64,000 nucleotides of DNA. Source: Liolophura sinensis. Taxonomy: Eukaryota; Mollusca; Polyplacophora; Chitonida; Chitonidae. Positions 12,785 through 35,699 of this stretch are shown in pieces (the stretch's first letter is position 1; each line of letters begins with the position of its first letter). The DNA is taken from the NCBI RefSeq assembly GCF_032854445.1, contig NC_088299.1:11217608-11281607 (forward strand), in the 5' to 3' direction. The position numbers were made by a program, and so were the translations under genes. The notes beneath the pieces were generated by a model, which had not been told where the DNA came from, searched no databases, and was given only the letters and a program-made list of their open reading frames with translations.

Positions 12785-14303
12785 ACTTTTGAAAGAATGT
12801 GCAGAGGAACTGGCCGTTCCCCTAAGCTTAATTTTCAGTGCATCTCTTCAAAATGGGTGCTTCTCAACAGATTTTAAGAGAGCTAACGTGATTCCAATTT
12901 TCAATAAAGGCTGACGTTACTAATTACCGCCCTATATCTTTGCTACCACTCTTCAGTAAAATTTTAGAAAAGGCTGTACATGAAACTCTGTTCAACATGT
13001 TCGAAAAAAAAAATAGCCTTAAATCTACATGGATTTTTTCGTAACCGTGACACAGTTACCAACCTAGCCTGTTATGCTGATGGTATCACTAAAGCTTTTG
13101 ACGCAAAACTGTAGACCGATGCTGTGTACCTAGGCCTCTGTAAAGCTTTCGACAGCGTCTCTCATGATATGCTGATACATAAACTGAAGCATTATGGCTT
13201 CCAACGCCCACTGCTCAAATGGCTTTGCTCCTATCTCGAAGGCCGTTCGCAACGAGTTGTCCTACAGAGCGCAGAATCTTCACGGAAGCCGGTATTATCC
13301 GGGATAACGCAAGGGTCTTTGATTGGTCCGCTACTGCTTATTTTATATGTAAACGACATGTCTTCTTGTGTACGGCACTCTAAATTGTCACTGTATGCAG
13401 ATGACAGTAAACTTTACAGACAAGTGCGTTCCGCGCAAGAATGTGAGCTATTACAGGATGACCTTGCACGTTTAACAACCTGGTGTTCAGTCACTTATAT
13501 CTCTGTACAGATCTTTATTTTGCTCTAACTTGGAGTATGGGTCAATTATATGGTCCCCCACCCAAAAATATCTCTCAGACAAGTTAGGGTCCGTTCAAAG
13601 AACGTTCATCAAATATTTATGTTTTAAAACTAATGACACTTATTCCTTTGAAAAATACAGTGGTATGTGTAAACAATTTCAGCTGCCACTATCTGATCGC
13701 CGCAGAGCTGCAGATTTAAAGTTCTTACACAAATGTGTTCACTCTATCGTTGACTCGCCTTACCTAGCACACCAGGTCAACTTCGATATTCCTGCTCGGG
13801 CCTTACAACAAACGGTAACTTTCCTGCGTGCGTCAACTAGAATTAACGCTCGAAAACATTCTTTTTTCCCTCGAGCCATGAATTCCTATAATGACCTGGG
13901 TTCTAATCATTCCACAGAAATTTTTTCTTCACAGCAATCTTTTAGAAAGTCAGTTCACTCGATTCTTTTTTATCGGTTTTCTGTGATTAACAAATTTCAT
14001 GATCTTAACTTCTGATTATAACGGCTTACAATTCTTAGTTTTTATGAAATTTCAACAAGAATAGTTTTTATATATTCACCTGTGTTTACAAGTAGGCTTA
14101 TAACCTTTCTGTATCAAGAGTTATATCATATGTTTACCTGTGTTTACACTATCTTTGTACAAAAATTGTATTTTATATTTACCTAGCTTTACATATGTGT
14201 ATTATAGGCTTCTGTTACTCTGTATGTATCCCTGTTATGAGACCTGTAAGTGGGCTCCTGGCCTGTTTGCTCTGAATATTAATAAACCATAAACCATAAA
14301 CCA
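12785..14303 (+). mobile_element. Decayed non-LTR retrotransposon, 3' part with reverse transcriptase
   Basis: Translated pieces in several frames give RT motifs of the Jockey/CR1/L2 type: ANVIPIF near 12885, then NYRPISLLPLFSKILEKAV, FDSVSHDMLIHKLKHYGF, the turn GITQGSLIGPLLLILYVND and the catalytic LSLYADDSKLY near 13400. A second frame from 13530 (YGSIIWSP through RINARKHSFFPRAMN) is the usual post-RT region. Stops and frameshifts near 12915, 13010 and 13110 break it. Between TTWC and YGSIIW the rest of the RT thumb is missing, an internal deletion near 13485-13530. It is 5'-truncated and ends in a short ATAAACC repeat typical of such 3' tails. It sits between COPS7 and PLSCR and cannot move on its own. 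Confidence 0.88.
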
Positions 14304-17243: not shown

Positions 17244-20200
17244 TCTCATTAAGTGTCTCCACTTAAATTATACGAGTCAACAACTATTCACCTTTTCACT
17301 TATGTAAAGCTCTCCGACGAAACCAAAAATAAGAAAATGGTGGAAAAAGTTCAACTTGGCTACAGACTTATGACCTCTCTAAGACCTCAGTTACAATACA
17401 TTTCAATCTGGTTATAGAAATAGGGGCCTATGGTATTTTTGAAGCCCCAGTTACTACGTTTTTGTCGACTAAGGCATATATCTAGGTGTCAGTAAATATG
17501 TGTCATTTGTCAGTTTGCTATTGCCAGAAGAACTAATTAATGGAGATTTCCGGTACTGGCGCAAATTGCCCCAATTGCAGATTTCGCAACATTGTACTGT
17601 CTATAACCGTGTTAAAAGATACATGGGTGTGTTAGAATATCGCGTCCTCGCTGTCTTGTGTGGGTAAATATCATGTCCTCGCTATCTCGGGTGGGTAAAT
17701 ATCGCGTCCTCGCTATGTCGGGTGGGTAAATATCGCGTCCTCGCTATCTCGGGTTGGTAAAGAGCTAGCTACCCTCAGGTCCTTAATTGACCAATGACGT
17801 TGAATGCTTGAATCAACGTTCGCTGTTTCGACTGTGGGTTTAAGTCAGGGGGTTTGTCAGTTTTGCCAAGGGCTTGTTTTCTCCTCCCACAATCATAACT
17901 GTAGTTATGTTATTAAAAAAGTTCTTGAGCACGTTGTTATAAACATAACTTAAAGAAATAAAACCAATCTATACATGTATCTAACAGTAATAAATTCCAC
18001 ATGGAACTGTGCACAGTTATTAAAGTAGATTTTTGGCTTTTTCCTGAGAATTCTTTAAGAGCCATTGGGAGAGTTTCATGGAGTAGGGGTAATCATTTCA
18101 TGGAATATGGGTAATCATTTCATGGAATATGGGTAATCATTTCATGGCCATATTAACTAGAGGTTTAGGACGTTTTATTAAAAATCACATATTTTATTAT
18201 GACAAGAGTGTGGACTGTCGGCATAGTATAGTAGCAGTGATAGTAGCTATGCTAACTTTACTGAAATTTCTTGTCATTTTCCCAAACTCTGTACCGTTTC
18301 CATTTTGAGTTTCATTTTGACACGGACAATAATTTCACACAAACATTATCTGCTTTGGCGCAAACTCAAGTTTGTTCTTATTTGTTTTTTTTTTTTTGTT
18401 TTGCTTTTTTTTTGGGGGGGGGGGGGGGGGCTGCTGATGTAGAATCCCCAGATCGTCTGTTGTAAAAAAATCATGTAAGTTTGAATGTGCGCATGGTTTT
18501 TTTAAAACACTAGGCAAATACATAAATTAAGAACAAGTTTCAGCACAAACACCAACTGGTTTGGAGATCTCATGGCGCAAACTCATTTTGCTGGGGGTTT
18601 TGTTTTTCTCTCAAAACGAACAGGAGTTGTAGAACCCCAGATTGGCTGGATGACCAAGCCGGACAGTTTGGAGGATTCACTGGGACTCGAGTACCTGACT
18701 GACCTCTCCGAGCTTATCATTCGCCAAGAGGTCAAACTGATTGAAAGTGAGGCTCTAAACAGATCACGTGACGGATTAATTTTGTCGTCTGTTGTTAGAA
18801 AATCATATTAAGTTTGAACTTGGGCATGGTTTTATTTACAAATTTTTTTTACATATTACACGCGTGTTGAGATGTGATGTGTTTTTTTTTTTTAAGGTAT
18901 ACAACTAGAATATGAAGGCTACTCAAAAATCATATTAAAATATTTTGTAAAATAACTAAAGCTGACTAAATTCATGTCCTGTTTCATAGACATTAATGGA
19001 CAGAATGTAAACATAAGGAAGCATATATAAGTATATAAGTAGAAACGTCTTGTGTATGGCGTTAAACACTATGTCTGCAGGTTTGAGCTCACAGGAGATA
19101 GAGAATACCTACCGGATCTGCAATTCTGCGGGGGAACAGGTCTACTATGCCCAAGAAGGTAACCATCTACAAGTACAGGGGCACTTAACACAGATCCTGT
19201 GTCTCACAGGAATAACATAACGCACGTAATATGATGTATGTGGAATTTTTTTTTCATACATCTTTAGTTTGGTTCAAAAAAATAACAGGTGTTTGGAAAT
19301 GTCGCCCAAAAACAGCGATGGATATGCAATGTGTACATATATGCATATGGGAACATAGCACAGGAACGATTTCATAGGCCTAATACATATTCCGCCAAAC
19401 AATGAAGCAACAGGTTGTTGTGATTTGCATATGAAACCTATGGTTTCCCTTGAATTGTGTCTTCGGTATATAGCCAGGCAAAACCTATTTTAGCTGCAGA
19501 CTGCTTAAAAAGGCCACTAGTCAAATGTAAACAAATTGTCCGCCTGCTTCATGAATATGAGCATGTAAAAGAAAAGCAGCTATGATATTCGTGTGTCTTA
19601 CAAATGAACCTTGAGCCTCAAACAAGTAAAATCATTAATAAAGATTAAACAATTTATTTTATAGGTGCATGTAGACCATTCAAAAGGTCATTATACACCC
19701 AAGTCATTGATTCCAAAATTACGAAAGAAGATGGTTTAATTCACACATGTATATACTACAAATAATTCGTTCATATATTAAATGATATCGCATTTGTTTT
19801 GTGTTTGGGACAGAATCAAAAGCCACACAGAGGCAATGCTGTGGATCGTACAGGCAGTTTACTATGCACATTCGAGATAAACTCGGAATGGTAAGTTTCT
19901 ATGTATAGAGAGAATTATCTGGAAAGTGAAGAAGACCTGGTGCGATTTCCTTCTATCGCTAGGGTATGACAGATACCATGTTATAAAACAAACAAAATGC
20001 ACAACACACAAGTTTACCAGGTGTAGTTCCAATAAAATAATCTCACGTATTAATGATGCAAAATCTTTGCCTGTATGACCTAATAGGATATTAAATATTG
20101 GCAACTGACACAAAACGTCTGGACCAGTTTAATCCTATGATGCATGTCCACTCGTTACAAGCAGTGTGTGTAAACACGTTATATAAATATACACACAAGT

Positions 20201-23200
20201 ATGATCTCAATTTGTTTTCGGCTTTTCACAATAAATAGGTTTATACTCTATTACTTAAGTACGAAAATAAAAACTAGTTATACCTTTAAATCATTATAGG
20301 GCTTGTCATTTGCCTGGAAGAAATAGACATCTCTCCTCAACTCTTCGCACGTAACATGTACACATCATACATACAGTGTCATAACGTGGTTATCTACCTT
20401 TGTAGGAAATTATACGACTGAAGAAGAAGTTTGTGTGTTGTGGAGGGAGTAGTTGCTTTGCTTGCTGCAAAGGTTGCTCCAATTACATCGAGATAGAGGC
20501 TCCTGTGGCGATACAGATTGGTTATATGAGACAAGAGTAAGTGCATTTGGTAAACCAAGCAGACACGCATACAGGCAGATATTTAGTTAGGTATGTGATT
20601 ACCCAAACCGACACACAAATAGACACACAGACATTCTGTAAGAGCTTGACCCGGCCAAGGAGTCATTTAGAAGTAAAGGTACGGTGTCCAATAGAACATC
20701 AGAAACTCGGTGTCAGAGAGAGTATGAGAAAGAAAAGACTGTCAGAAGATCAAAACATCGTACAGAGAAGGTACTGTTTTGACAAACAGTCAGTTTCACA
20801 AAATACCACACAGACAATGAATCAGACAGACAGACAGTCATTCAGTCAGACAGAGCATAACACAAAGTACTGTTTTGACAAACAGTCAGTTTTACAAAAA
20901 CCACACAGACAATGAATCAGACTGACAGACAGTCAGTCAGAAAGGACATAACACAGAGAAAGTATTGTTTTGACAAACAGTCAGTTTCACAAAATAGCAC
21001 ACAGACAATAAATCAGACAGACAAACAGTCAGTCAGACAGAACATCACACAGAGAAAGTACTGTTTTGACAAACAGTCAGTTTCACAAAATACCACACAG
21101 ACAATGAATCAGACAGACAGTCAGTCAGACAGAACATCACACAGAGAAAGTACTGTTTTGACACACAGTCAGTTCCACAAAATACCACACAGACAATGAA
21201 TCATTCAGGCAGGACATCATATGCAGAGAAGGAATTAATGAAGCAGACAGCCCGACCAATCCACAGAGAGGTAGAAAAGCACATCTGCATACATATACAC
21301 AGACACTGATAAATGTTCAAATATTAGGGAAGATAATATAGCTTAGTATGTGGATACTCCCGTTTTTTCTGTTTTTAGTTTAATGACTATATTCCTTCTT
21401 TATCAGACGGACCAATCCACAATACGTCATATACGACACATCCAAATATTCCTCCACGCACAGTCGGAGTGCTTGAACTAGACGATACTGAGCCTATATC
21501 ATTACCCCTACCACATGTAGTCCCATAATCCTTACGTTGCTTTCTGCCGCTCTGTACGCTCACTTTTCGTCACTGCCACCACTAGACAGACTTGACCTTT
21601 CCAGCCTTGCCTCGCATGTAGGCTTGTACAGGTTGAGCGTCATCACTGGTATTTAATCTGAATTCTTATATGAAGTTGTTTCAGATGATAGTTAGAGACA
21701 TGTTTTGTATACTTTTGATAAAGAGAATGCTATTGTATAAAGTGTTGTTAAAAACGAAGATATTTTTTCACATCCTGCCTCATGATCGTGACCCCAGTGA
21801 CCTCGGCGTTGTTAAAGACTTCTTTTCAAACTTTGCCAGTGGTGGCAATGATGCATTCAGTCCATCTTTGCAGGTACAGTCTATGTGGGCCTCGTTTTCG
21901 AGTTTGTGACGTTAGAGATCGTACCTTGCTGTACGTCCAGGGACCATGCTGCACGTGCCAATGTTTATGTTGCCCTAGAGACATAGACTTCCAGGCAAGT
22001 TGAGGTTATGTTTTTAAAATATATGTACCTTAATACAGCAATCATGTTAACGGGTGGAAAAATATTCAATGCCAATATCACAGACAAGTTTATCGGGCTT
22101 CCGTGGCCTAGTGGTTAGCATGCTAGAACAACACAATGGACCAGGAGCGTATCACCAATGCGATCGCTGTGAGTTCAAGTGCAGCTCATGCTGGCTTCCT
22201 CTCCCGTCATAGGTGGGTAGGCCAACCAGCAGTCTGCGGATGGTCGTGGGTGTCCCCCGGGGTTCTGACCAGTTTTCTCCCCCCATAATGCTGGCCGCAG
22301 TCGTACAAGTGAAATGAGTACGGCAATAATACATGCATGAACATTTTTATCTACTTCACAGACTCAGATATCATACAGAGCATATACATGTGTTATTGCA
22401 TAACTTTTTCGTCTGAAGCTGTAAATCGCCTCATTTATCGGATTACCACTCTTTGTGTCTTAGGAGGATAAATTGATCACGGTACTTAGTTTTGCTAACT
22501 TATTTCGCTGCCCAGGTTCTAGATGCAGAAAAATCGTCCACTCTCGGGAAGATATCTAAGGTATGGAGCGGACTGGATCAAGAACTGTTTTCCAATGCTG
22601 ATAATTTTAAAGTCACATGTAAGTATAACTGAATACAGACACCCCATCCCTCTTCCAGAATAAAGTCATCGTCGTATTTTGCTATAAAATGAATTTTCAC
22701 CTTTGTCTTTAGAATTCTCTTGGCAGCAAAATGTGCGCAACACATGCAAACAATACACAAGACATCGATAAAAATACGTACTAAGTTGCATCTTTTTGGA
22801 TACTGAAACAAGAATCAAGCTTAATAAATGTGCCGGATTTAATGTTACATGTATGCATATCGATTTATGTGAAACATATTTTGAAGAAAGCGGTATACGC
22901 CATCAAATGTCGACGGATATACTGGAAATAGTAGAAAAGTATGTACAAATGAAGGAGCTTGTACATATATAATTCGGGTGAATTTTTGTTAAATTAACCC
23001 TCATGTTACAGCCGATGTAGACGATAGAGTTTTATAAAATTATTTCAGAAATTACTTTAACGAAGGCATAATTTTGTTTTTCAGTTCCACAAACGATGGA
23101 TGTGAAAACCAAAGCCATACTATTAGGAGTTGTCTTTCTCATAGTAAGTGGTTGTTTCCTGCTACACTTTTCTGGGGAGGTTTGCGTTGAATATAATATT

Positions 23201-26200
23201 CATAGTAGGTACCTAGAGTGATTGCCAAAGTGGGTGTTCTGTGGAGGGCTACAGTAGGTACCTACAGTGATTGCCAAAGTGGGTGTTCTGTGGAGGGCTA
23301 CAGTAGGTACCTACAGTGGTTGACAAAGTGGGTGTTCTGTGGATGGCTATAGTAGGTACCTACAGTGATTGACAAAGTGGGTGTTCTGTGGATGCCTATA
23401 GTAGGTACCTACATTGGTTGACAAAGTGGGTGTTCTGTGGATGGCTATAGTAGGTACCTACAGTGATTGACAAAGTGGGTGTTCTGTGGAGGACCTTAGT
23501 AGGTACCTACAGTGATTGACAAAGTGGGTGTTCTGTGGATGGCTATAGTAGGTACCTACAGTGGTTGCCAAAGTGGGTGTTTTGTGGAGGACTATAGTAG
23601 GTACCTACAGTCATTGCCAAAGTGGGTGGTCTGTGGATGGCTATAGTAGGTACCTACAATGATTGCCAAAGTGGGTGTTTTGTGGATGGCTATAGTAGGT
23701 ACCTACAGTGATTGACAAAGTGGATGTTCTGTGGATGGCTATAGTAGGTACCTACAGTGATTGCCAAAGTGGGTGTTCTGTGGAGGGCTATAGTAGGTAC
23801 CTACAGTGATTGACAAAGTGGGTGTTCTGTGGAGGACTAAAGAAGGTACCTACAGTGATTGCCAAAGTGGGTGTTTTGTGGAGGACTAAAGAAGGTACCT
23901 ACAGTGATTGCCAAAGTGGGTGTTCTGTGGATGGCTATAGTAGGTACCTACAGTGATTGCCAAAGTGGGTGTTTTGTGGAGGACTAAAGAAGGTACCTAC
24001 AGTGATTACCAAAGTGGGTGTCCTGTGGATGCCTATAGTAGGTACCTACAGTGATTACCAAAGTGGGTGTTCTGTGGATGGCTATAGCAGGTACCTACAG
24101 TGATTGCCAAAGTGGGTGTTTTGTGGATGGCTATAGTAGGTACCTACAGTGATTGCCAAAGTGGGTGTTCTGTGGATGGCTGTAGTAGGTACCTACAGTG
24201 ACTGACAGTGTGGGTGTTCTGTGGATGGCTATAGTAGGTACCTACAGTGGTTGCCAAAGTGGGTGTTCTGTGGATGGCTATAGTAGGTACCTACAGTGAT
24301 TGATAAAGTGGGTTTTCTGAGGATGGCTATGGTAGGTACCTACAGTGATTACCAAAGTGGGTGTCCTGTGGATGCCTATAGTAGGTACCTACAGTGATTG
24401 CCAAAGTGGGTGTTCTGTGGATGGCTATAGTAGGTACCTACAGTGACTGACAGTGTGGGTGTTCTGTGGATGGCTATAGTAGGTACCTACAGTGATTGCC
24501 AAAGTGGGTGTTCTGTGGATGGCTATAGTAGGTACCTACAGTGACTGACAGTGTGGGTGTTCTGTGGATGGCTATAGTAGATACCTACAGTGGTTGCCAA
24601 AGTGGGTGTTCTGTGGATGGCTATAGTAGGTACCTACAGTGATTGATAAAGTGGGTTTTCTGAGGATGGCTATGGTAGGTACCTACAGTGATTACCAAAG
24701 TGGGTGTCCTGTGGATGCCTATAGTAGGTACCTACAGTGATTGCCAAAGTGGGTGTTCTGTGGATGGCTATAGTAGGTACCTACAGTGACTGACAGTGTG
24801 GGTGTTCTGTGGATGGCTATAGTAGGTACCTACAGTGATTGCCAAAGTGGGTGTTCTGTGGATGGCTATAGTAGGTACCTACAGTGATTGCCAAAGTGGG
24901 TGTTTTGTGGAGGACTAAAGAAGGTACCTACAGTGATTGTCAAAGTTTGTGGTCTGTGTATGGCTATAGTAGGTACCTACAGTGATTGCCAAAGTGGGTG
25001 TCCTGTGGATGGCTATAGTAGATACCTACAGTGATTGCCAAAGTGGGTGTTCTGTGGATGGCTATGGTAGGTACCTACAGTGATTGCCAAAGTGGGTGTT
25101 CTGTGGATGGCTATAGTAGGTACCTACAGTGGTTGCCAAAGTGGGTGTTTTGTGGAGGACTATAGTAGGTACCTACAGTCATTGCCAAAGTGGGTGGTCT
25201 GTGGATGGCTATAGTAGGTACCTACAATGATTGCCAAAGTGGGTGTTTTGTGGATGGCTATAGTAGGTACCTACAGTGATTGACAAAGTGGATGTTCTGT
25301 GGATGGCTATAGTAGGTACCTACAGTGATTGCCAAAGTGGGTGTTCTGTGGAGGGCTATAGTAGGTACCTACAGTGATTGACAAAGTGGGTGTTCTGTGG
25401 AGGACTAAAGAAGGTACCTACAGTGATTGCCAAAGTGGGTGTTTTGTGGAGGACTAAAGAAGGTACCTACAGTGATTGCCAAAGTGGGTGTTCTGTGGAT
25501 GGCTATAGTAGGTACCTACAGTGATTGCCAAAGTGGGTGTTTTGTGGAGGACTAAAGAAGGTACCTACAGTGATTACCAAAGTGGGTGTCCTGTGGATGC
25601 CTATAGTAGGTACCTACAGTGATTACCAAAGTGGGTGTTCTGTGGATGGCTATAGCAGGTACCTACAGTGATTGCCAAAGTGGGTGTTTTGTGGATGGCT
25701 ATAGTAGGTACCTACAGTGATTGCCAAAGTGGGTGTTCTGTGGATGGCTGTAGTAGGTACCTACAGTGACTGACAGTGTGGGTGTTCTGTGGATGGCTAT
25801 AGTAGGTACCTACAGTGGTTGCCAAAGTGGGTGTTCTGTGGATGGCTATAGTAGGTACCTACAGTGATTGATAAAGTGGGTGTTCTGTGGATGGCTATAG
25901 TAGGTACCTACAGTGATTGCCAAAGTGGGTGTTTTGTGGAGGACTAAAGAAGGTACCTACAGTGATTGTCAAAGTTTGTGGTCTGTGTATGTTTATAGTA
26001 GGTACCTACAGTGATTGCCAAAGTGGGTGTCCTGTGGATGGCTATAGTAGATACCTACAGTGATTGCCAAAGTGGGTGTTCTGTGGAGGACCTTAGTAGG
26101 TACCTACAGTGGTTGCCAAAGTGGGTGTTTTGTGGAGGACTAAAGTAGGTACCTACAGTGATTGACAAAGTGGGTGTTCTGTGGATGGCTATAGTGGTAC

Positions 26201-27560
26201 CTACAGTGATTGCCAAAGTGGGTGTTCTGTGGATGGCTATAGAAGGTACCTACAGTGATTGCCAAAGTGGGTGTTCTGTGGATGGCTATAGAAGGTACCT
26301 ACAGTGATTGTCAAAGTGGGTGTTCTGTGGATGGCTATAGTAGGTACCTACAGTGATTGCCAAAGTGGGTGTTTTGTGGATGGCTATAGTAGGTAACTAC
26401 AGTGGTTGCCAAAGAGGGTGGTCTGTGGATGGCTATAGTAGGTACCTACAGTGATTGACAAAGTGGGTGTTCTGTGGAGGGTTATAGTAGGTACCTACAG
26501 TGATTGCCAAAGTGGGTGTTCTGTGGATGGCTATAGTAGGTACCTACAGTGGTTGACAAAGTGGGTGTTCTGTGGATGGCTATAGTAGGTACCGACAGTG
26601 GTTGACAAAGTGGGTGTTCTGTGGATGGCTATAGTAGATACCTACAGTGATTGACAAAGTGGGTGGTCTGTGGAGGACTAAAGTAGGTAACTACACGGCT
26701 ATAGTACTTATGGTGGTTATCAAATCGGAATGCTCTATGAAGGGCTAGGTGTAATGCTAGATTTTTAGTAGGTTTACACAGTGATTGTCAAAATGAGTGT
26801 TCTTTGAAGGGTATGTTGAATGTTAAGTTCAAACAATTATTCCAAGAAGGGTCATTCTGTTGAAGACCGGTATTGAATTTCACATAGGAAAATAATTCTA
26901 TTTGAATATCTCAACACTTCACTCATGAGGCTATTCTGGAATGGCTGATGCTGGATACAAGTTTCATATTACGTAGATATGGTGGTTTACAACATTGCTA
27001 CTTTGTAGAAAGGTTTGCGCAGAATGCTAACCTAATGGCAAAGAAGACACAATTTCATGTGATTCTGCAGGCCCGAGAAATACAAGCCTCATAATATGTA
27101 CATACTATGGAGGACCTTCGTTAAGTGTTAGGGTCGTATTTAGTACAAACAAGTATTCCATGTGAAGCCATTCTGTTGAAGGGCTGTGTTGAAATTCACT
27201 CGGCACAAAATTTCCATTTGCATATCACAACACTTCACCTAGTAAAGCAATTTCCTATTTTTTTGTCACAGAACCTCAGTAAATAAATATATTTCAGTCC
27301 TTATCACACGACCTAATTGAACACATATATTCCCTTCCTTAGAACACGACTTCATTGAATACATTAATTGCCTTCCTTTATTACAGGACCTCAGTAAATA
27401 CAGGAATTCCCTTTTCGTATTACAGGACTTCATTGAATGCATTAATTTACTTCCCTTGTCACAGGACCTCAGTTAATACATGAATTCCCTTTCCTTATTA
27501 CAGGACTTCATGTTTTTCGAAGAAAGCCATGACCATAGCCGGACCGAAAGAATTGTTTGA
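16810..27560 (+). CDS. PLSCR: Phospholipid scramblase, nine coding exons
   Basis: Scramblases are lipid-anchored, single-helix membrane proteins linked to Ca2+-dependent phospholipid redistribution; some also act in the nucleus. Coding exons: 16810-16843, 18624-18746, 19081-19158, 19814-19890, 20406-20536, 21874-21994, 22516-22618, 23085-23143, 27504-27560. They total 783 nt (260 aa plus TGA) and all phases match. Recognisable blocks: LGLEYLTDLSELIIRQEVKL (about 31-50), QRQCCGSYRQFTMHIRDKLG (about 84-103), the Cys-rich palmitoylation-type stretch CCGGSSCFACCKGC (115-128), EIEAPVAIQIGYMRQE (about 133-148), GPCCTCQCLCCPRDIDFQ (about 171-188), the Ca-binding-like loop NADNFKVTFPQT (215-226) and a C-terminal hydrophobic helix AILLGVVFLIDFMFF (233-247). 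The Pro-rich N-terminus of vertebrate PLSCR1 is absent. Intron 6 has a GC donor (CAG/GCAAGT). A 5' UTR exon is likely: an acceptor-like site ends at 16760 and a donor-like site lies near 15591. The start is the only ATG in the first exon that keeps frame. Confidence 0.94.
17163..17238. repeat. (TA)n microsatellite in scramblase intron 1
   Basis: About 75 bp of pure TA; the ORF running through it is an artefact. Confidence 0.97.
17635..17762 (+). repeat. 31-bp tandem repeat, four copies
   Basis: TATCGCGTCCTCGCTATCTC followed by GGGTGGGTAAA, four units with few changes, in scramblase intron 1. Confidence 0.88.
18075..18147 (+). repeat. Short tandem repeat, three copies
   Basis: TTTCATGGAATATGGGTAAT-type units in scramblase intron 1. 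Confidence 0.85.
18334..18503 (+). pseudogene. Degenerate partial copy of scramblase exon 2 region
   Basis: Matches 18538-18835 in order: CACAAACA, TGGCGCAAACTCA, a T-rich tract, GTAGAATCCCCAGAT (exon 2 start: GTAGAACCCCAGATT), then CGTCTGTTGT, AATCATGTAAGTTTGAA and GCATGGTTTT. Almost all of the exon body is deleted. A run of 17 G (18414-18430) replaces the short G run of the parent. It is an ancient local duplicate that can no longer code. Confidence 0.75.
20765..21199 (+). repeat. 96-bp tandem repeat in scramblase intron 5
   Basis: TGTTTTGACAAACAGTCAG recurs at 20775, 20871, 20966, 21062 and 21154, spaced 96, 95, 96 and 92 bp. A sub-motif CAGACAGACAGTCAGTCAG expands and contracts within it. 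The unit is 32 codons long, which creates fortuitous ORFs rich in Gln and Thr. Confidence 0.9.
22095..22335 (+). mobile_element. SINE in scramblase intron 6
   Basis: Sense copy with GGGCTTCCGTGG head, B box GTGAGTTCAAGTGC and body. The tail end is degraded (TGAGTACGGCAATAATAC), without the AAAT run. Confidence 0.85.
23200..26700 (+). repeat. 49-bp satellite, about 71 copies, in last scramblase intron
   Basis: The monomer runs roughly TAGTAGGTACCTACAGTGAT, TGCCAAAGTGGGTGTTCTG, TGGATGGCTA. It carries the perfect palindrome TAGGTACCTA, which includes a GGTACC site. Variant monomers recur at 343 bp (7 units; TGATAAAGTGGGTTTTCTGA at 24301 and 24644) and 1568 bp (32 units; the TCATTGCC variant at 23611 and 25179). 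A decayed monomer persists at about 26767-26812. Confidence 0.97.
26832..27240 (+). repeat. Pair of diverged direct repeats after the satellite
   Basis: 26832-26925 and 27146-27240 share CAAACAATTATTCCA-like, CATTCTGTTGAAG and ATCTCAACACTTCACTC-like segments about 314 bp apart. They fill the intron between the 49-bp satellite and the acceptor-like repeats. Confidence 0.6.
27233..27503 (+). repeat. 38-39 bp repeats carrying copies of the last-exon splice acceptor
   Basis: Seven units have boundaries at 27271, 27309, 27347, 27386, 27425, 27464 and 27503. The last four are exactly 39 bp apart. Each unit has a pyrimidine tract, then ACAG (or a mutated ACAC), then GACYTCA, as in the true acceptor TTATTACAG/GACTTCATG. 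The last unit is the real 3' splice site of the scramblase. Confidence 0.85.
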
Positions 27561-32200: not shown

Positions 32201-33189
32201 ATGTTCCGATTATAATAATTCATTTGTAAGAAATTTATCCTTTACTCTGAACATCTACAGATTGAAGAATTTTTTCCTGAGAAAGTTATGAACGTAGCCA
32301 AGAATTAACTCACTAAGTCTGTGTACGTTGTTTCAAGGAATGGATCATCAACAAATAGCTATGGCCTATCACGTATAAATGTGCATGAGGGTTATGTACA
32401 CCAGCAATGTAAATATTTACAGAAGGATAGAAATAAATCGACTTCTTTTTATAACCATTTATTATTTATTTTTCCAGTATATACATCAGCATACAAAACC
32501 AGGAAGCAAAAAACTTCTTGCTTAAATGTTAATTTGAAATACAAGTTATTACACATGCAGACAATCTCGGCTGACCAATTTATTGATGTGAATGATATAG
32601 ATATTACAGATTTAAATTATATATTGCCTATAAACAAATGGAAAACAAAATGGAAATATAGTATACAGAACAAAAATACAAAATGATACAGTAGGCCTAT
32701 TACTCGTCGTGATGTAACAGAAGCTATGTATCGTTTATTTCTATTACAGCTGAGTTTTTTTATGGCATAATTATGTTATCATTAATTTGTCTCCTCGAAT
32801 ATCGACTTTTTCACCACTGAATATTTGTATCTAATGTACTTTTAACCTCAAGACAACAGAGTCATCGTGCTGCATATAACTGTTTGGTCCACAACTACAC
32901 ATAACGTGCGGTAAAGAATCTCCATACCACCCACTGTACCATTCATAACATCGCTCTCGGAACTACTACTGTATCTCTCACGGTATCAAATACTTCACCA
33001 CTCACTGTACCTATGACTGCAACAATCTCTTGTCCATTCCCTGAATCACTGACTGTACCACTCTCAGATCCCCTCACTACTGATCACTTTACCATTCTCG
33101 GAACCCCTGACTACACCATCCTCGGAACCACTGATTGAACTACTCCAGAACCACCCACTATACCACTCACTTTACTACAGACTATACCA

Positions 33190-35365
33190 CACATTATACA
33201 TCAAGGTACCACTCACTTTATGACCAACACAGAGCCGCTCATGTAACTGTACCATTGACCATGTCACTCTCGGAACCACGCGCTGTAACACACCCCCTTT
33301 ATCAATGACTATACCACACATTATACATCACTGTACCACTCACTTTATGACAAGCACAGAGCCGCTCATGTAACTGTATCATTGACCATGTCACTCTCGG
33401 AACCACGCGCTGTAACACACCCCCTTTATCAATGACTATACCATACATTATACATCACGGTACCACTCACTTTATGACCAACACAGAGCCGCTCATGTAA
33501 CTGTATCATTGACCATGTCACTCTCGGAACCACGCGCTGTAACACACCCCCTTTATCAATGACTATACCGCCCATTATACATCACTGTACCACTCACTTT
33601 ATGACAAGCACAGAGCCGCTCATGTAACTGTATCATTGACCATGTCACTCTCGGAACCACGCGCTGTAACACACCCCCTTTATCAATGACTATACCACAC
33701 ATTATACATCACGGTACCACTCACTTTATGACCAACACAGAGCCGCTCATGTAACTGTATCATTGACCATGTCACTTTCGGAACCACGCACTGTAACACA
33801 CCCCCTTTATCAATGACTATACCACCCATTATACATCACGGTACCACTCACTTTATGACCAACACAGAGCCGCTCATGTAACTGTATCATTGACCATGTC
33901 ACTCTCGGAACCACGCACTGTAACACACCCCCTTTATCAATGACTATACCACACATTATACATCACTGTACCACTCACTTTATGACCAACACAGAGCCGC
34001 TCATGTGACTGTATCATTGACCATGTCACTCTCGGAACCACGCACTGTAACACACCCCCTTTATCAATGACTATACCACACATTATACATCACTGTACCA
34101 CTCACTTTATGACAAGCACAGAGCCGCTCATGTAACTGTACCATTGACCATGTCACTCTCGGAACCACGCACTGTAACACACCCCCTTTATCAATGACTA
34201 TACCATACATTATACATCACTGTACCACTCACTTTATGACCAACACAGAGCCGCTCATGTAACTGTACCATTGACCATGTCACTCTCGGAACCACGCGCT
34301 GTAACACACCCCCTTTATCAATGACTATACCACACATTATACATCACTGTACCACTCACTTTATGACCAACACAGAGCCGCTCATGTAACTGTATCATTG
34401 ACCATGTCACTCTCGGAACCACGCACTGTAACACACCCCCTTTATCAATGACTATACCATACATTATACATCACGGTACCACTCACTTTATGACCAACAC
34501 AGAGCCGCTCATGTAACTGTATCATTAACCATGTCACTCTCGGAACCACGCGCTGTAACACCCCCCTTTATCAATGACTATACCATACATTATACATCAC
34601 GGTACCACTCACTTTATGACCAACACAGAGCCGCTCATGTAACTGTATCATTGACCATGTCACTCTCGGAACCACGCGCTGTAACACACCCCCTTTATCA
34701 ATGACTATACCGCCCATTATACATCACTGTACCACTCACTTTATGACCAACACAGAGCCGCTCATGTAACTGTACCATTGACCATGTCACTCTCGGAACC
34801 ACGCGCTGTAACACACCCCCTTTATCAATGACTATACCATACATTATACATCACGGTACCACTCACTTTATGACCAACACAGAGCCGCTCATGTAACTGT
34901 ACCATTGACCATGTCACTCTCGGAACCACGCACTGTAACACACCCCCTTTATCAATGACTATACCACACATTATACATCACTGTACCACTCACTTTATGA
35001 CCAACACAGAGCCGCTCATGTAACTGTATCATTGACCATGTCACTCTCGGAACCACGCGCTGTAACACACCCCCTTTATCAATGACTATACCATACATTA
35101 TACATCACTGTACCACTCACTTTATGACCAACACAGAGCCGCTCATGTAACTGTATCATTGACCATGTCACTCTCGGAACCACGCGCTGTAACACCCCCC
35201 TTTATCAATGACTATACCACACATTATACATCACTGTACCACTCACTTTATGACCAACACAGAGCCGCTCATGTAACTGTATCATTAACCATGTCACTCT
35301 CGGAACCACGCACTGTAACACACCCCCTTTATCAATGACTATACCATACATTATACATCACTGTA
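33190..35365 (+). repeat. 127-bp satellite, 17 copies
   Basis: The anchor GAGCCGCTCATG recurs at 127-bp steps (GCC at 33234, 33361, 33488 and so on to 35264), with two 126-bp steps where a run of C has lost a base. Copies differ at a few alternating sites such as GCGCTG/GCACTG and CACACATT/CATACATT. Flanks (32880-33190, 35366-35700) are a degenerate mix of ACCACTCACTGTACC-like words from which the unit seems to have arisen. No gene is seen here. Confidence 0.96.
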
Positions 35366-35699
35366 CAACTCATTGTACGATAAACACAGAACCACTCTTT
35401 ATACCACTTACCATGTCACTGACCATCACTGTCTGAACCACTCACTTTTCACTCGATGCACAACTGACTACACCACTCAGTGTTTCACAGTTCCACTCTT
35501 TGTACCACTCACTGTATCATTCCCACGCTTTGTACCACTCAATATACTACCTACTATACCACTCTCTAAAACACTCGCTGTACCACTACCTTCCACTCCA
35601 CCACCCAATGTCAAACCCAATGTTCCACTCAACACCGTTATACCACACTCGGAACTATTAAACATGCCACTTTACCACTGGCTGTATTACACACTATCA

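Follow-up and report, generated by a model that had tools for sequence, protein, structure and literature searches.

A tandem array of junction copies, probably a mirage minisatellite, at the end of the last intron of a chiton scramblase gene

On its plus strand, the stretch of chiton DNA analysed here (the window, 64,000 nucleotides of Liolophura sinensis) carries a gene for a scramblase, a membrane protein. One open frame of 248 residues results when seven coding exons at 18625-23143 are joined to the last exon at 27504-27560 (Table 1; a slash marks an exon/intron junction, here and below). The joined protein aligns with positions 10-221 of the 221 in the profile PF03803 (E=4.3e-62, 209.8 bits, cut-off 25.4), which places it among the members of that curated family. 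The exon boundaries are predictions from AG/GT signals, phase and alignment with paralogs, and an upstream first exon with a start codon was not located for this gene. We suspected a pseudogene while one exon seemed to be absent, but this was ruled out, as the exon lies at 21874-21994 and ends in a GC donor. Elsewhere in the window, an open frame at 13115-13528 with a YADD motif presumably resembles the reverse transcriptase of a non-LTR retrotransposon, and a 127-bp tandem array of 17.5 copies (96% matches) occupies 33180-35397. A repeat reading CCGTGGCCTAGTGGTTAGC and onwards at about 22090-22330, which we take to be SINE-like, has counterparts that look similar by eye, on either strand, near three paralogs: in the last intron of C, in that of A, and downstream of the final exon in D.

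Table 1. Predicted coding exons and last intron of the scramblase gene, and units of the array that ends this intron (window positions).
Feature	Position	Strand	Basis or remarks
Coding exon	18625-18746	+	AG/GT signals, phase, paralog alignment; 5' end uncertain
Coding exon	19081-19158	+	AG/GT signals, phase, paralog alignment
Coding exon	19814-19890	+	AG/GT signals, phase, paralog alignment
Coding exon	20406-20536	+	AG/GT signals, phase, paralog alignment
Coding exon	21874-21994	+	AG/GT signals, phase, paralog alignment; GC donor CAG/GCAAGT (21994-21995)
Coding exon	22516-22618	+	AG/GT signals, phase, paralog alignment
Coding exon	23085-23143	+	AG/GT signals, phase, paralog alignment
Last intron, phase 0, 4360 nt	23144-27503	+	Donor CTCATA/GTAAGT; position and phase the same in paralog C
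Array unit 1, 40 nt	27232-27271	+	Ends TTTTTTTGTCACAG; AG intact, top score among the AGs examined
Array unit 2, 38 nt	27272-27309	+	AC in place of the junction AG
Array unit 3, 38 nt	27310-27347	+	AC in place of the junction AG
Array unit 4, 39 nt	27348-27386	+	Acceptor-like end intact; predicted tail if used DLSKYRNSLFVLQDFIECINLLPLSQDLS
Array unit 5, 39 nt	27387-27425	+	Acceptor-like end intact; predicted tail if used DFIECINLLPLSQDLS
Array unit 6, 39 nt	27426-27464	+	Acceptor-like end intact; predicted tail if used DLS
Array unit 7, 39 nt	27465-27503	+	Terminates in the real acceptor, that of the conserved last exon
Last coding exon	27504-27560	+	DFMFFEESHDHSRTERIV, then TGA; first 8 bases GACTTCAT are the final piece of the repeat

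The last intron of this gene is rich in repeats. Most of it is filled by a 49-bp minisatellite at 23202-26695 on the plus strand (71 copies according to TRF), many units of which read TAG/GTACCTACAG. A separate tandem array of seven units of 38-40 bp, 27232-27503, ends the intron, and its repeat extends past the acceptor to take in about 8 bases of exon; TRF calls it at 27268-27510 (period 39, score 192) and at 27299-27511 (period 78, score 265). A first-pass annotation of this DNA had described seven units of 38-39 bp, each with an AG followed by GACYTCA. The number of units stands, but their lengths are 40, 38, 38, 39, 39, 39 and 39 bp, and the sequence ACAG/GACYTCA is confined to units 4-7, since units 2 and 3 end in AC and the AG of unit 1 is followed by AACCTCA. 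Similarly, the three intact upstream AGs that it listed (27386, 27425 and 27464) are indeed spaced exactly 39 bp from one another and from the AG at 27503, but there is a fourth, the AG of unit 1 at 27271, whose distance of 232 bp to 27503 puts it in a different frame. A higher-order repeat of 78 bp is also apparent, with units 4 and 5 together identical to units 6 and 7 at 68 of 78 positions. The intact units thus alternate between two kinds, GACTTCATTGAAT and GACCTCAGTNAAT, and the true period is 78 bp.

The repeated unit is the gene's own splice junction. Units 4-7 each consist of the end of the intron plus 7-8 bases of the start of the exon, and units 1-3 are imperfect copies of the same junction. 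In two respects the array matches what has been called a mirage in amphioxus: its unit spans the intron/exon boundary of the host gene, and it is a tandem run of minisatellite-sized units with higher-order turnover. Which came first, the exon or the repeat, can be addressed through the coding sequence. The exon start GACTTCATG encodes D-F-M, and this motif is conserved at the same place in paralogs C (DFMFFE) and B (DFMYFE). Because the exonic part of the unit encodes these conserved residues, we infer that the junction was copied into the repeat, and not that the exon arose from the repeat.

Several other origins for the array were considered. Chance similarity was ruled out, as an upstream copy scores 26 with a 36-base junction query, whereas the best of 1000 dinucleotide shuffles reaches 15. 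A dispersed or transposon-derived unit is unsupported: a DNA search, by a method that can miss common words, placed the array at one site in the one assembly, and a pattern search returned the array and a single second match on contig C25, which is a different, unrelated sequence. A known RNA element or tRNA was likewise rejected, since in the window neither Rfam, at the gathering score, nor ARAGORN gave a hit. Nor is the array common to the paralogs, as TRF finds no array in the same-place intron of gene C. Gene B is without this last intron, the short last exon of gene D is a different one, and in this paralog comparison the last exon of gene A was not found.

To score the AGs as acceptors, we built a matrix on 18 acceptor sites of this genome (6 belonging to the window gene and 12 to its paralogs; 22 were listed, of which 4 motifs were unmatched). 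With this small matrix, the AGs at 27271, 27386, 27425, 27464 and 27503 score 12.1, 6.1, 8.0, 7.5 and 6.6, respectively, and rank 1, 8, 3, 4 and 5 among the 352 AGs of 23170-27559 (348 up to 27503). Ranks 2 and 6 are held by AGs outside the array, at 26768 and 27022. The training acceptors, each left out in turn, range from 1.3 to 15.2. By this rough measure, the upstream sites would be about as good as the real site, and the proposal that the array presents competing 3' splice sites is backed at the level of sequence, with four intact upstream AGs scoring 6.1-12.1 compared with 6.6 at 27503. Because 27503 is transcribed last and does not have the top score, its exclusive use is not obvious from the sequence. 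Branch-point candidates are uneven (just two of the sites, 27386 and 27464, have a CATTAAT some 19 bases upstream) and decided nothing.

We also predicted the proteins that upstream sites would specify. Reading from 27386 or 27425 continues in frame to the TAA at 27474-27476, and reading from 27464 gives D-L-S before the same stop, all as the first-pass annotation had claimed; use of 27271 would give NLSK and a stop at 27284-27286. In every case the last exon would be longer and the new stop would lie downstream of the final junction, from which one would predict that the messages evade nonsense-mediated decay. It had further been proposed that DFMFFEESHD forms the end of the transmembrane segment and that use of an upstream AG could leave the membrane helix incomplete. 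The first proposal holds for DFMFF, but EESHD falls outside the most hydrophobic 19-residue stretch. The second does not hold for 27425. The best 19-residue Kyte-Doolittle mean is 1.87 for the normal tail DFMFFEESHDHSRTERIV, compared with 2.34 for the 27425 tail DFIECINLLPLSQDLS and 1.41 for the other three forms, including that from 27386 (DLSKYRNSLFVLQDFIECINLLPLSQDLS). The 27425 tail would also keep the Pfam match almost whole, at 200.1 bits compared with 209.8.

Signs that the copies are being maintained are mixed. Among the variable columns of the four intact units, the pyrimidine or purine class is preserved in 6 of 7 within the splice signal and in 1 of 7 within the spacer (Fisher p=0.029), and none of the seven columns of ACAG/GAC varies (p=0.031 with the 25 of 39 invariant columns placed at random). 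When invariant columns are counted overall, the signal is not more invariant than the spacer (15 of 22 and 10 of 17, respectively, p=0.74). Because the parts were chosen after the alignment had been seen, and because the copies share descent, these column tests give only a hint that the splice-signal columns are maintained. The loss of the AG in units 2 and 3 argues for decay. This decay does not simply follow distance, as unit 1, the outermost, keeps a strong, out-of-frame AG.

We then asked whether other junctions of this genome are copied in the same way. In 167,893 bases (the window and regions chosen around scramblase genes) there are 33 minisatellite arrays, 10 of which have two or more good acceptor-like AGs on a single strand. 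In scramblase gene C, an array at L027:9134-9841 (G000:C6:76585134-76585841; TRF rows merged) copies a donor. It starts at the exon 4 donor, TGTTAAGCAACA/GTAAGTTCAAAAC, which is followed by six further copies of TGTTAAAGAGCA/GTAAGTC (CAGTAAGT; GCAGTAAGT), which begin 156 bp beyond the real donor and follow each other at intervals of 100 bp. Another intron of gene C holds a 70-bp minisatellite (L027:7085-7385) in which four places read ACAGGTGAG or GCAGGTGAG, an acceptor and a donor back to back; we take these to resemble recursive splice sites. Copies are found at 2 of 34 scramblase junctions, a biased sample that includes both of the cases that prompted the count and in which 4 of 12 donor motifs were skipped.

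A sample of myosin genes, comprising 30 exon loci of 81 matches chosen without regard to repeats, contains donor-copying arrays at 2 of the 30. The first (L052; C12:686729-686914, minus strand) has about 8 units of a 66-bp repeat, with two exact copies of the 16 bases that surround the real donor and a larger number of near copies. At the second (L060; C11:2675303-2675428, minus strand), a 32-bp repeat of 7.5 units holds six exact 12-base copies of the donor, with a seventh outside the repeat but within the same locus. Read in the myosin frame, neither exon contains a stop ahead of the junction. A third match (L051, score 17) is doubtful, having a weak donor and a stop in the match. All of the copied junctions other than that of the window are donors, which leaves the window array as the sole acceptor case seen.

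It might be supposed that minisatellites prefer junctions. This is unsupported: copies scoring at least 18 occur at 2 of 49 myosin junctions and in 26 of 196 control segments (Fisher p=0.081), and copies scoring at least 16 at 3 of 49 and in 27 of 196 (p=0.22), so that junctions are poorer in copies if anything, and not significantly. In this comparison, junctions were selected on their scores in the vicinity of the profile match (of 60 possible edges, 49 passed, and 6 of the 30 exon matches contain stops), and the controls, four per junction at 300-900 bases away, may include other exons. The donor matrix was a general one. As junctions are not enriched, junction-copying arrays look like an expected by-product of a minisatellite-rich genome.

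Arrays of this kind have been reported before, if rarely. In amphioxus, mirages are tandemly duplicated intron/exon boundaries in the globin genes BflGb6 (on the acceptor side) and BflGb9 (on the donor side) and in Adh3, and many of their units keep the AG or GT signal (PMC3087553). RT-PCR and the Adh3 data are reported to suggest that regular splicing is undisturbed, and a role in intron gain has been proposed (PMC3087553). The chiton array shares with these the tandem duplication of a boundary, but differs in host (a mollusc, and a last intron, instead of a cephalochordate) and in unit size, with 39 bp (78 bp at the higher order) compared with 150-160 bp in BflGb6 (PMC3087553). The Adh3 unit is given there as 10-72 bp (Nucl Acids Res 2002;30:2871, as cited in PMC3087553), and the copy number of BflGb6 as 6 and 3 on different haplotypes. 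A human counterpart is the VNTR in intron 18 of ABCA7, with a 25-bp unit that opens with the two bases of the real splice site; splicing at a copy one unit further on is infrequent, and by our reading one unit is retained in 2 +/- 1% of transcripts (PMC5954066). There, however, the copied site is a donor and the repeat number, linked with skipping of exon 19, is described as hugely variable in people (PMC5954066). NAGNAG tandem sites are also neighbouring in-frame acceptors with like motifs (PMC3250501, PMC8055015), whereas the window sites are 39 bp apart, derive from a minisatellite and each have their own pyrimidine tract. Repeats at human exon-intron boundaries have been tied to new introns (PMC2812944). 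Among the matches listed from the open-licence literature (titles and abstract starts, hardly directed at molluscs), none concerned boundary-copying arrays in molluscs, and no paper in that literature was found for chitons together with scramblases.

We consider it probable (roughly 80%) that the array is a mirage minisatellite that has grown without selection for a function, with 27503 as the main splice site. A short duplication would first have covered the 3' end of the last intron together with roughly 8 bases at the start of the last exon; two copies that differed slightly would then have been amplified jointly as a 78-bp unit, and part of the upstream copies would have decayed, with units 2 and 3 losing their AG. 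Because the copies lie inside the intron, the mature message would be unchanged as long as 27503 is chosen, and upstream sites would seldom or never be used. Growth was probably by accident. Neutral repeat growth, which the first-pass annotation had named as the alternative to a functional array, fits best with the arrays at the donors of other genes and with the undisturbed splicing reported for amphioxus (PMC3087553). What speaks against this reading is that three in-frame upstream units retain strong acceptor features, that unit 1, the farthest out, holds the top-scoring AG, and that the column tests hint at maintenance.

Those same scores could instead mean that the good upstream sites are used appreciably, as costly splicing noise that leaves less normal scramblase. 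The low-level use of a neighbouring unit in ABCA7 (PMC5954066) lends this some plausibility, but no harm is visible in the sequence, and the located exons join in an unbroken frame. We regard appreciable noise as somewhat unlikely, noting that it overlaps with accidental growth of a mirage, so that the odds of the two are not exclusive. A bolder proposal is that such arrays are pervasive in this genome (at a few percent of junctions, hence at thousands), that they form a reserve of spare acceptors and donors, now and then used, from which new protein ends and introns are created, and that the scramblase array, with the base class preserved in its signal columns, is held for use; we consider this improbable.

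Alternatively, the upstream sites could be functional acceptors, used in some tissues to make scramblases with other C-terminal tails. The upstream scores, close to or above that of the real site, the 39-bp spacing that keeps three sites in frame, the pyrimidine or purine class preserved in the signal columns of the intact units and the hydrophobic 27425 tail with its nearly whole Pfam match would all be expected in this case. On the other hand, two of the six upstream junction copies are broken and 27271 is out of frame, the signal columns overall are not more invariant than the spacer, unrelated genes carry similar arrays, and amphioxus mirages reportedly leave regular splicing intact (PMC3087553). 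Selected use of the upstream acceptors therefore seems quite unlikely. Still less probable is that the array is a step towards the gain of an intron or exon as in the model proposed for the amphioxus globins (PMC3087553): the sequence (A or G)ACCTCA/GT(A or T)AAT stands after 27271 and 27386 (units 1 and 4) and, as a poorer match, after 27464 (unit 6), which would put a donor-like GT 7 bases beyond an acceptor, but a 7-base exon would shift the frame, and the likeness is one of sequence only.

Accidental growth of a mirage minisatellite would make the window array a further case of a kind of repeat that is already known but rarely described. It most likely extends boundary-copying repeats from amphioxus to a mollusc, and in the small sample examined here such repeats recur in unrelated genes of one genome. 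The array also gives one intron four 3' splice sites of nearly equal score, spaced 39 bp from each other, with a fifth that scores higher still farther upstream. Because these near-equal sites lie in one intron, public RNA reads can directly show whether position or strength decides between them, which makes the array a natural test of how cells pick the correct splice site.
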